From: Leptolyngbya sp. Heron Island J
Lineage (GTDB): Bacteria; Cyanobacteriota; Cyanobacteriia; Phormidesmidales; Phormidesmidaceae
Direction of reading: 5' to 3'
NCBI RefSeq assembly: GCF_000482245.1
Contig: NZ_AWNH01000112.1
Location: 62,001-126,000 of the forward strand
Length of the DNA: 64,000 nt
In this document: positions 40,822 to 45,727 of the stretch, piece after piece
Position numbering within the stretch: position 1 is the stretch's first letter
Layout: each line of letters starts with the position of its first letter
Position numbers and translations under genes: made by a program
The notes under the pieces: model-generated
Seen by the model: the letters and a program-made list of their open reading frames with translations, nothing else
Told to the model about the DNA's origin: nothing
Database searches by the model: none

Positions 40822-43644
40822 TTACCGGGCTACAGGGGTACCGTTGACTTTGGAATAAACAAGAGTTTGTACTTCATTTAGCAAATCCTGTCGATTAAAA
40901 TCAGCTTTTTGATACACCCGAATAACACCGTCCAAACGCTTCTGATCCTTAGCTGTTAGTGTCTTAGCAGTTACAATAATGATAGGGATGTTGCTCCAAT
41001 CAGGACTTTGACGCAGGATCTGGACAAATTCAAAGCCATCCATACCGGGCATCATCAGGTCTAGCACAATTAAGTCAGGTACAGTAGTTTTGAGATACTC
41101 TAGGGCTTGCTGTCCGTTAGCTGCAAGGACGACGGTCCAATCGTGCTGCTGTAAGAAACGCCCCATGATTTCTCTGGCATTGGCATCGTCCTCAACCACT
41201 AAAATTCTCGGGTTTGTTTGCTCAGGGAGTTGAGTGTCTAAAAGCTCAAGCAGATGCAGGTGATCGATAGGCTTCAGCATATAGTCAGTTACCCCTAGCT
41301 GATAGGCGCGATCGCGATCATCGGTCATTGACAGTAAAATCACAGGCACTTGAGATACTGTCGGTAGTGCCTTGAGTTTTTGTAAAACGCCCCAGCTATC
41401 CTGATCGGGTAGCATCATGTCCAGAATAATGGCATCAGGAAGCAGCTCATCGGCTAGTACAAGCCCCTGTTGGCCATCAACAGCACACACAACGTTGTAA
41501 CCAGCATCGGTCAGCCAGCTGTGTATGCTTTCACAAGCATCTGTATCATTATCAATCAAGAGGATTGTTTTTTCTGAAGTGCGACCTGATATTTCGTGGA
41601 CTGTCGAGATTGACTTCCGCTCAATGAGGCGGACCGGTGGGGCAAAGAAGGTTTCATCTGAGGGTCGATCTAGTTGAACAGCTTGGGGGATAGTCAGCGT
41701 AAATGTCGTGCCTTCGCCATAGACGCTGTCGACGGTGACATCACCTCCCATCATGGAAATAAACTGTTTTGTGATGGTCAGGCCTAAACCAGTACCCCCA
41801 TACTTTCTTGTTGTTGATGTATCTGCTTGGGTGAATGCCTGAAAAACTTTTCCCATTTGTTCAGATGTCATCCCAATTCCAGTATCGGTGACTGTAAATT
41901 GCAGATAATTTTCCTGATGCCCTTGAAGGCTACTCATCATCGTTGGCTGAACCGCCAGGGTGATTGTGCCATTTTCAGTAAATTTACAGGCATTGCTCAA
42001 CAGATTAATCAGACTCTGTCGGAGTTTAACTTGGTCTGCATGGAGAGACTCTATATGATCCGGACAGATTAAAGACAGCTGATTATTATTTTTCTGAGCC
42101 AGAGGTTGAATGGTGCCGATAATTTCATTCAATAGGGTCTTGATACAGATATCTTCTAAGAAGAGTTCCATACGACCTGCTTCAATTTTGGACAAGTCGA
42201 GTACTGAGTTGATCAGTCCTAGCAGATGTTTGCCTGCACCTTGAATTTTTTGTAAATCAGGGACAAAGTCATCTTCACCCAGGCTGGTGAAATCTTCTTC
42301 TAACATTTCGCTGTAGCCAATAATCGCATTGAGAGGTGTACGTAGTTCGTGGCTCATGTTAGCCAGAAACTCACTTTTAGACCGATTGGCATCTTCTGCC
42401 TTCACCCTTGCTGTTTCCGCTTCTTCCATAGCATCCGCCAGCTGGGTTGTGCGGTCTTTAACCCGACTATCGAGATCGCGATTCAGTTCGAGCAGTTGTT
42501 CTTCAGCTTGTTTGCGCTCTGTAAAGTCCTGTAAAAAGATAGACAAACCATCAAGACCTGGGTAGCCACGTACCATTAGCCAACGTTCAGTGGGCTCATA
42601 ATAGGTTTCAAAACTGACGACTTCTAAGTTAGTGGCTACAGCTTGGCGGTATTGTTCTGTAAAGCGTTTGCCAAGTGATTCGGGTAGAACCTTCCAAAAA
42701 TCTTGCCCTAACAGTCCTGGAAGATCACATTTAAGAATATCAGCCGCCTGAGCATTAACATAGGTGATTGACCAGGTGCGATCTACGGCAATAAACGCAT
42801 CGGTGATGCTTTCTAATACTCGAATTGTTTTCTGGCTAGATTGCTGTAGGCGATTGATGACCCAAAAGGCTACCATGCCAGAACTAGCAAATGCCAATAT
42901 GTAAATTAGATTACGATATAAAGTAATGCGTGCCTGCGTAGTTTGCTGAATATTATCAAACTGTTGTTCCAGGGCGCGAATATTATTGGTCAGTGGCAAA
43001 TCAAAAACTTGAGTAATGAGCGCATCTGCAGCTGGTTTATTCTCTAAAACTAGCTGCACTACTTGAGCGAGTTGGCGCTGTGTCGCTGCATTGGTATCAA
43101 GTTTGCCGCTAACGCGGTTCAGCTTTACTTTGATGTCATCAACGAGCTTTGTGTCACTGGTGACGGCATAGAGAGATAGATCATCAAGTAGGGCTTCAAT
43201 CTCCAGCCGCAGACTACCACTTAAGCCATTGAGCAAATTGGTTTCCTGTGCTAATGCTGTTCTTACCTCAGCATGATGTGTTTCGAGTTGTTCAATTAGT
43301 TGATGTTTCTCGGCTAATAGTTCAGCGTTAAATGCTAATTGTTTTTGTAAACTGCTGATATCTCTTTCTGATAGGGAAATAGGAATTTGTGCCGTCAGCT
43401 GAGCCTGTACCTTTTCAGCTTCTAGCAAAGCTGTGTTTAGGGTTTGGCCATTTTGTGAAATGGTATAGCGGATATTTTGTAACGCGAGTTGGGTGTCGGC
43501 TACATCAACAAGCTGATCTGAAATTAACGCGCTGTAACTTCGATACTGATCAAAATCGACAGTAACACTTTTGAGACCTAAGATAGTTAGGACTGAGAGT
43601 GTAGCGACAGCAGGTATACCCTTTAAGAAGTGCTTTCGTCTCAC
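40822..43644 (-). CDS. Hybrid histidine kinase 2, paralogue of kinase 1 (940 aa)
   Basis: Same architecture as kinase 1: membrane helix, all-helical periplasmic sensor, second membrane helix, PAS, HisKA (His432), HATPase_c, two receivers (from about 692 and 811). Transmitter and second receiver are highly similar between the two, while the sensor halves diverge, so they probably answer to different cues. In the first receiver the acidic pair reads DND rather than DDD, so one metal-binding Asp is replaced by Asn, though the phosphoacceptor Asp (LDMMLP) remains. GTG start at 43644 with AGGAG about 9 nt upstream. Both copies probably arose by tandem duplication. Confidence 0.93.
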
Positions 43645-44993: not shown

Positions 44994-45032
44994 AAAAAAA
45001 CAAAAAGCCCGTAGCCTTGGTGGGCTCCGGGC
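44994..45032 (-). terminator. Attenuator 2 terminator, upstream of aroF
   Basis: In minus-strand reading, GCCCGGAGCC (45032-45023) pairs with GGCTACGGGC (45016-45007) around a 6-nt loop, with one mismatch. TTTTTGTTTTTTT follows directly. This strong intrinsic terminator lies only about 25 nt before the aroF start codon, where a terminator makes sense only as an attenuator. Confidence 0.9.
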
Positions 45033-45067
45033 AAGTCAATACAGCAAAGCAATCGCTACCTACCCGG
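45027..45067 (-). promoter_or_regulatory. aroF: Attenuator 2 antiterminator pairing
   Basis: CCGGGTAGGT (45067-45058, the last codons and stop of leader peptide 2) can pair over 10 bp, with two G-U pairs, with ACTTGCCCGG (45036-45027). This overlaps the terminator's 5' arm by 6 nt, so the two structures exclude each other. A ribosome at the leader stop codon would cover the first strand and allow termination. One stalled at the Phe codons, 10-30 nt upstream, would leave it free. Confidence 0.8.
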
Positions 45068-45115
45068 TGGTGGCGTAAAAAAGAAAAAGGTAAATTGCCA
45101 GCTGTAATGCATCAT
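45056..45115 (-). CDS. Phe-rich attenuator leader peptide 2 (19 aa)
   Basis: The frame reads MMHYSWQFTFFFFTPPPGR and then stops: five Phe, one Tyr and one Trp, with four Phe codons in a row. It lies about 90 nt before aroF and ends inside the antiterminator strand. This matches the layout of known Phe leader peptides such as that of E. coli pheA. No good ribosome-binding site is visible, which is common in cyanobacteria. Translation is inferred from composition and the RNA architecture. Confidence 0.82.
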   Translation of the reverse strand: MMHYSWQFTFFFFTPPPGR

Positions 45116-45146
45116 GGTAGTTAAAACAAAACCGGGAATTGGGGAA

Positions 45147-45180
45147 TAAAACAAAACCGCAGAGTGTAAGCTCTGCGGTT
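45147..45180 (-). terminator. Attenuator 1 terminator (or ridA terminator)
   Basis: A perfect 10-bp stem AACCGCAGAG (45180-45171) with CTCTGCGGTT (45164-45155) encloses a 6-nt loop and is followed by TTGTTTTATT in minus-strand reading. It could simply end ridA mRNA. Its 4-nt overlap with the antiterminator and the aromatic leader ORF just upstream argue for attenuation. Confidence 0.85.
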
Positions 45181-45224
45181 CACCAGCGGCCCATGCTAAC
45201 GCTAGGGTTCATCGCTGGTGAACC
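45177..45224 (-). promoter_or_regulatory. aroF: Attenuator 1 antiterminator pairing
   Basis: GGTTCACCAGCG (45224-45213, inside the last codons of leader peptide 1) is a perfect 12-bp complement of CGCTGGTGAACC (45188-45177). The latter shares AACC with the terminator's 5' arm. A third segment, TGAACC at 45211-45206, can also pair with GGTTCA at 45224-45219. It could act as the competing hairpin that forms when no ribosome is present. Confidence 0.78.
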
Positions 45225-45259
45225 TGACTAAACCAAAAGTAGAAAAACTGGTACGGCAT
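45209..45259 (-). CDS. Aromatic-rich attenuator leader peptide 1 (16 aa)
   Basis: The frame reads MPYQFFYFWFSQVHQR and then stops: four Phe, two Tyr and one Trp among 16 residues, six of them in one uninterrupted run. It overlaps the 5' strand of the 12-bp antiterminator, with the aromatic codons 6-25 nt upstream of that strand, the spacing needed for stalled-ribosome control. It has no visible Shine-Dalgarno sequence. Confidence 0.8.
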   Translation of the reverse strand: MPYQFFYFWFSQVHQR

Positions 45260-45299
45260 GGGTTAAAAGTTTGTGAGCTAATACTGCTCGAATACTTGT

Positions 45300-45328
45300 A
45301 CGTTAACGCGCCAAGTTTAAACCGTCAA
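45300..45328 (-). promoter_or_regulatory. Possible promoter of the aroF leader
   Basis: TTGACG (45328-45323) is separated by 17 nt from TAACGT (45305-45300). The -35 is good and the -10 is poor. Transcription would start near 45293 and run through both attenuators. Read-through from ridA, which ends at 45338, is an alternative. Confidence 0.35.
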
Positions 45329-45337
45329 CTATTCTAA

Positions 45338-45727
45338 TTAAACAACTGCGATACACTCAATTTCCACCAAGACATCTTTGGGCAATCGGGCTACCTCAAC
45401 ACAGGCTCTAGCCGGAGCTGTTGCTTCATCAAAGTAGGTGGCATAGACACCGTTCATGGTGCCAAAGTCATTCATATCCTTTAAGAACACAGATGTTTTA
45501 ACCACATCAGCCATGGTGGCTCCAGCTGCCGTCAACACAGCCGTGAGATTATCTAGACACTGCTTAGTCTGGGCCGCCACATCCCCTTCACCCACCAAGG
45601 TGCCACTGGCCGGATCGAGGGCTACCTGCCCTGAGGCAAACACCATTTCCCCGGTGGCCACAATCGCTTGATTGTAAGGACCCACGGGAGCAGGAGCTTG
45701 ATCAGTTTGAATAATTCGACGAGCCAT
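45338..45727 (-). CDS. ridA: RidA family enamine/imine deaminase (129 aa)
   Basis: Hydrolyses reactive 2-aminoacrylate and other enamine/imine intermediates released by PLP enzymes, protecting the cell and branched-chain amino-acid synthesis. The family pattern is clear: APAPVGPYNQAI, FASGQVALDP, the substrate-carboxylate Arg in PARACVEVARLPKDVLVEIECIAV, and standard length. Small trimeric cytosolic protein. The ATG at 45727 is in the expected place. It lies directly upstream of the aroF attenuators on the same strand; a functional link through aromatic aminotransferase chemistry is possible but unproven. Confidence 0.95.
   Translation of the reverse strand: MARRIIQTDQAPAPVGPYNQAIVATGEMVFASGQVALDPASGTLVGEGDVAAQTKQCLDNLTAVLTAAGATMADVVKTSVFLKDMNDFGTMNGVYATYFDEATAPARACVEVARLPKDVLVEIECIAVV

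Follow-up and report, generated by a model that had tools for sequence, protein, structure and literature searches.

Two predicted amino-acid attenuators arranged in series upstream of a cyanobacterial DAHP synthase gene

DAHP synthase is the first enzyme of aromatic amino-acid synthesis, and control by a single ribosome-mediated attenuator is classical, as in the trp, phe and his leaders of E. coli and the Trp, His, Leu and Thr leaders of Rfam. In E. coli trp, a protector (1:2) hairpin brings about termination when the leader is left untranslated, an element that is not universal. The two units described here, which precede aroF in the 64-kb window (the whole stretch of DNA that was analysed), have in common with the classical attenuators a short amino-acid-rich leader open reading frame (ORF), an antiterminator competing with an intrinsic terminator, and a biosynthetic target; they differ in lying two in series, in being cyanobacterial, in matching no Rfam family and in that the end of the ORF is itself the antiterminator strand. 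A survey of 255 genomes suggested that amino-acid attenuator motifs may stem from gamma-proteobacteria, with very few transfers (PMC3766115). The mgtCBR leader of Salmonella (mgtM, mgtP) likewise combines two leader ORFs and attenuator structures in one leader, but its signals are different (ATP and proline), its effects are additive and its hairpins are unlike intrinsic terminators, whereas both aroF units have intrinsic terminators and would answer to the same class of signal; its authors called this tandem a "singular example" (PMC3641672). The uORFC-13-1 motif of Acholeplasma, with 24 representatives, resembles the aroF units in that a predicted uORF with one or more Phe codons and a terminator precede a DAHP synthase gene, and differs from the pair in being a single unit from another phylum (PMC8632094). 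Two serial terminators, the upstream one with an antiterminator, are also found in the rimP leader of Gammaproteobacteria, which comes from a premature-terminator survey whose accessible text reports no amino-acid codon control for it and makes no mention of cyanobacteria (PMC2965389). In the B. clausii metE leader, tandem riboswitches similarly provide serial control elements with two terminators; unlike the aroF leader, they use RNA-bound ligands (SAM and B12) and no leader peptides (cited in PMC3641672). We found no description of cyanobacterial ribosome-mediated attenuation in the open-access literature, and the original prediction likewise knew of none.

The spacer between ridA and aroF on the minus strand contains two complete units, each consisting of a leader ORF, an antiterminator and a terminator (Table 1). 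The original prediction had proposed exactly such a tandem upstream of a DAHP synthase gene, with the end of each ORF forming an antiterminator strand; the sequence bears out this arrangement in both units, every element lies at the predicted bases, and only small corrections were needed, concerning the overlap of 4 nt in unit 1, the promoter start and the contrast in codon content. A search combining an aromatic-rich short ORF, a terminator and a competing antiterminator returned exactly two units in the window, both before aroF; 20 first-order Markov windows of the same 64-kb length and 361 kb of opposite-strand background gave no unit. We propose, with a probability of about 0.9, that two serial ribosome-mediated transcription attenuators, acting as an AND gate, lie upstream of aroF and sense aromatic aminoacyl-tRNAs.

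Table 1. Features of the ridA-aroF region (positions in the window)
Feature	Position	Strand	Basis or detail
ridA	45727-45338	-	
Sigma-70-type promoter	45328-45300	-	-35 TTGACG 45328-45323, 17-nt spacer, -10 TAACGT 45305-45300
Leader ORF 1, MPYQFFYFWFSQVHQR then stop	ATG 45259 to TGA 45209	-	Aromatic codons -12 to -7 from stop
Unit 1 antiterminator 5' strand A, GGTTCACCAGCG	45224-45213	-	Within end of leader 1
Unit 1 antiterminator 3' strand B, CGCTGGTGAACC	45188-45177	-	Perfect 12-bp pairing with A
Unit 1 predicted intrinsic terminator	45180-45147	-	10-bp stem, 45180-45171 (AACCGCAGAG) with 45164-45155 (CTCTGCGGTT), then TTGTTTTA; U-rich tail; in generic terminator listing
Leader ORF 2, MMHYSWQFTFFFFTPPPGR then stop	ATG 45115 to TAG 45056	-	Sequence and coding signature
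Unit 2 antiterminator 5' strand A, CCGGGTAGGT	45067-45058	-	End of leader 2
Unit 2 antiterminator 3' strand B, ACTTGCCCGG	45036-45027	-	Overlaps terminator 5' arm
Unit 2 predicted intrinsic terminator	45032-44994	-	Stem 45032-45007, T5GT7 tail; folds and covariation
aroF, short type I-beta DAHP synthase, 289 aa	44968-44099	-	PF00793 and a weaker overlapping NeuB match only

The two units are built differently. In unit 1, the antiterminator (fold of -38.4 kcal/mol, z -5.3) and the terminator overlap by 4 nt only (AACC, 45180-45177), so that the antiterminator would take away the four pairs on the U-tract side and leave a 6-bp hairpin. In unit 2, the A:B helix comprises 10 bp including two G-U pairs, and the GCCCGG of strand B doubles as the 5' arm of the terminator; in the best-conserved cases, strands A and C are near-identical (AGTTCCGGG), which gives B two alternative partners. 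Covariation was assessed in sets of 38 and 45 non-redundant sequences, with the four helices tallied separately because they are mutually exclusive. The unit 1 antiterminator had 92.3% of cells paired, with 46 double-change cells (14.4 in shuffles) and seven pairs changed on both sides, and the unit 1 terminator had 94.2% paired, with 15 double-change cells (3.3 in shuffles) and four such pairs. The corresponding values for unit 2 were 88.9% and 29 double-change cells (12.0 in shuffles) for the antiterminator in its consensus register, and 92.0% and 40 (10.1 in shuffles) for the terminator. When the helix partner was slid by 1-3 columns, pairing fell to 16-58%. Covariation is thus seen in each of the four competing helices.

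The leaders themselves show a coding signature. Aromatic codons peak at positions -12 to -7 from the stop in leader 1 and at -14 to -7 in leader 2 (104 loci each), and the gaps in the leader alignments are of 3 or 6 nt, apart from three 4-nt exceptions in A2. Of the codon differences that involve one base, 34% and 41% are synonymous in the two proposed frames, versus 15-22% in the other frames, a descriptive comparison that is uncorrected for kinship. The leaders are without a clear Shine-Dalgarno sequence. The contrast originally drawn between the leaders, Phe/Tyr/Trp in the first and mainly Phe in the second, holds in the source genus (that of Leptolyngbya PCC 7375, Adonisia and Leptothoe), but elsewhere both leaders read Phe, Tyr and Trp, and the case for differing amino-acid specificities of the two units is weak outside that genus. 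We also considered whether the leaders chiefly yield trans-acting products, either small stable RNAs or peptides, with constitutive termination; the peTrpL peptide of Sinorhizobium offers a precedent for leader peptides of this kind (PMC7298713). Conserved antiterminators would be unneeded in such a system, and, although the N-termini of the leader peptides differ freely, the aromatic core and the base pairing have been retained, so we judge it very unlikely.

A promoter of the form TTGACN-N16-18-TANNNT precedes leader 1 in 95 of 100 loci, compared with 14 of 2000 shuffles (0.7%), and the same pattern was absent between the leader 1 stop and aroF in all 103 loci searched; the copy in the window is omitted by a generic consensus promoter scan because its -10 element scores low. 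The attenuation model had been said to fail if aroF transcripts started past both terminators, and the sole conserved promoter sits upstream of both units. Its position also bears on whether unit 1 is simply the terminator of ridA, with only unit 2 belonging to aroF and the aromatic ORFs being coincidental. ridA does end at 45338, on the same strand as unit 1 and 79 nt ahead of leader 1; however, the promoter separates ridA from unit 1, covariation is seen in leader 1 together with its antiterminator, and ridA is found upstream of aroF in only 15 loci (from the source genus and two relatives, with some duplicate records), whereas unit 1 is present in nearly all. The adjacency of ridA is thus local, indicating that the units belong to aroF, and we consider the attribution to ridA extremely improbable.

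The conservation of the pair was examined using aroF orthologues gathered from relatives and from named genomes. Two aromatic leaders, resembling M....YFYFWF..VHRE for leader 1 and M.....SWFYGFYFWPR.SSG for leader 2, precede nearly all aroF orthologues at 65-87% identity, and both units are present in loci of Nostoc, Calothrix, Mastigocoleus, Trichocoleus, Oculatella, Coleofasciculus, Leptolyngbya and others. Covariance models of unit 1 (R1) and unit 2 (R2) detected their units in 108 and 105 of 291 Cyanobacteriia genomes, respectively, and comparison of the two lists placed both units in 102 genomes from 13 GTDB families. In the named loci, some of which had trained the models, R1 matched 75 of 76 and R2 matched 76 of 76. 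The 49 genomes that have a complete short aroF in the relatives list and also belong to the 291-genome sample all carry at least one unit, and genomes in both lists without a complete short aroF carry none, with the exception of G017, whose contig ends just past unit 2. As judged by the covariance models, each genome has one real copy, ahead of the same aroF orthologue; the sole second match (G132:C92, E 0.005) was marginal and, like an R2 match in G295 (E 3e-4), had no adjoining aroF and was attributed to chance. Neither model matched the other unit, indicating that the units are not recognisable as copies of one another. An alignment of relatives had been suggested as a check for conserved aromatic codons and covarying stems, and both are conserved across many families; the tandem pair is conserved far beyond the genus, in many filamentous cyanobacteria. 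This is a strongly supported and widely conserved case of predicted attenuation at the entry step of the pathway, and its arrangement of two unlike attenuators in series is unusual.

Some lineages have a single unit, indicating that two units are not indispensable. Unit 1 alone was found in G074 (G074:C30:42301-42412, L161) and G107 (L160), and the R1-only matches all come from the family of these two genomes, except for G172; unit 2 alone occurs in scattered genomes, namely at L039 and in G270 (L153). These natural single-gate lineages, available for each unit, make the system suitable for asking why there are two gates and not one. G118 retains both units, with unit 1 diverged and its terminator now reading GACCCAA/TTGGGTC. 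At G172:C48 (L156), unit 1 is kept before a truncated aroF and unit 2 is missing, and this locus is apparently decaying. At L093, the two units are separated by a tandem repeat (WDGHPCPSYRF/MGIPARP, in two frames) that runs into an ORF overlapping leader 2.

In the proposed mechanism, transcription of the aroF leader would start at the one promoter and meet two independent attenuators in series. In each unit, a ribosome at the leader stop would cover the antiterminator strand and let the terminator form; a ribosome stalled on Phe, Tyr or Trp codons, when the charged tRNA is short, would leave that strand free to capture the terminator 5' arm, and the polymerase would read through. aroF would be reached only with both gates open, and its transcription would for this reason track how much charged aromatic tRNA is available, with the stringency of the two steps multiplied. 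Such a mechanism would imply tight coupling of transcription and translation in these cyanobacteria. The class of mechanism is well supported by comparison of the sequences; we infer leader translation, actual termination, an aromatic amino-acid signal and multiplication of the two steps.

To model the switch, a ribosome was placed at each codon in turn and the RNA that it does not cover was folded. The ribosome edge was set 13 nt beyond the first A-site nucleotide, and unit 1 was scored on the four terminator pairs that conflict with the antiterminator. For unit 1, the predicted probability of the terminator, averaged over 104 loci, was 0.26-0.37 with the A-site at -12 to -9, 0.76 at -8 and at least 0.96 from -7 onwards; in the window, it rose from 0.29 to 0.76 and then to 0.97-0.99 as the ribosome passed the aromatic codons. 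For unit 2, it was 0.01-0.13 up to codon -7 and 1.00 from -6 in the window, and the mean of all loci rose from 0.62 to 0.95. The modelled switch point thus lies at -8/-7 in unit 1 and at -7/-6 in unit 2, with the aromatic codons just ahead of it, in agreement with the earlier claim that these codons are placed for control by ribosome stalling. An edge of 11 nt lets the conserved Trp codon at -8 in leader 1 antiterminate as well, which an edge of 14 nt does not, and because of this dependence on the footprint edge it is uncertain how strongly unit 1 would respond to Trp. Since the mean for unit 2 stays at about 0.62 at equilibrium with a stalled ribosome, kinetics must help; equilibrium folding leaves out the lead that the antiterminator gains while the RNA is being transcribed. 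For an untranslated unit 1 the model favours read-through (0.39), and no strong trpL-like protector hairpin is therefore seen; the folds of unit 2 in the window contain a possible 5' pairing.

Mutually exclusive helices with terminators would also be compatible with direct binding of a ligand, a tRNA or a protein, as in a riboswitch, a T-box or a TRAP-like attenuator, with the short ORFs incidental. One feature could be taken in favour of such binding: the A-B loop of unit 2 contains a conserved CATG (often GTCATGC), about 7 nt past the leader 2 stop (for example, in L040), in 28 of 47 sequences versus about 10% of shuffles. This motif, whose conservation is weaker in unit 1, might be a polymerase pause site, which is one guess. 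However, the Rfam scan of the locus gave no family at gathering score and nothing credible when relaxed, and in both scans no amino-acid leader family, including Trp_leader, and no T-box model matched. Moreover, the conserved primary sequence consists mostly of aromatic codons and helices, the reading frame is kept, and the loops vary in length and sequence. A directly bound RNA is consequently a highly improbable explanation compared with ribosome-mediated attenuation.

The product of aroF has the DAHP_synth_1 barrel (PF00793). Its best match in the PDB by sequence is 3pg8 (272 residues), which covers the barrel only, from residue 34 on, and further matches are the DAHP synthases 1rzm and 1zco; all three are type I-beta enzymes. 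In the Thermotoga maritima enzyme, a ferredoxin-like (FXD) regulatory domain confers feedback inhibition. This domain (PF18152) was absent from the aroF product in a domain search and is present in long I-beta paralogues of other cyanobacteria (L158 and L159). The idea that aroF encodes the sole DAHP synthase of the genome was dropped, as a second gene of the type I-alpha-like class lies at G000:C45:40148-41032 (L164); no such leader was found upstream of it, and no class II enzyme was found. Among 52 loci of pheA, trpE-family genes and other DAHP synthases, none had these attenuators in the upstream parts within the fetched loci, compared with 75 of 80 in the positive control. We consider it rather probable that the tandem AND gate has been retained from a time before many cyanobacterial families diverged, and that RNA control replaces the allostery of the long paralogues for a DAHP synthase without a feedback domain; it would then also be the first description of ribosome-mediated amino-acid attenuation in cyanobacteria. 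The system is relevant to the engineering of aromatic production in cyanobacteria. Downstream of aroF, on the same strand, a large gene encodes a hybrid sensor kinase that contains receiver domains (window 40822-43644).
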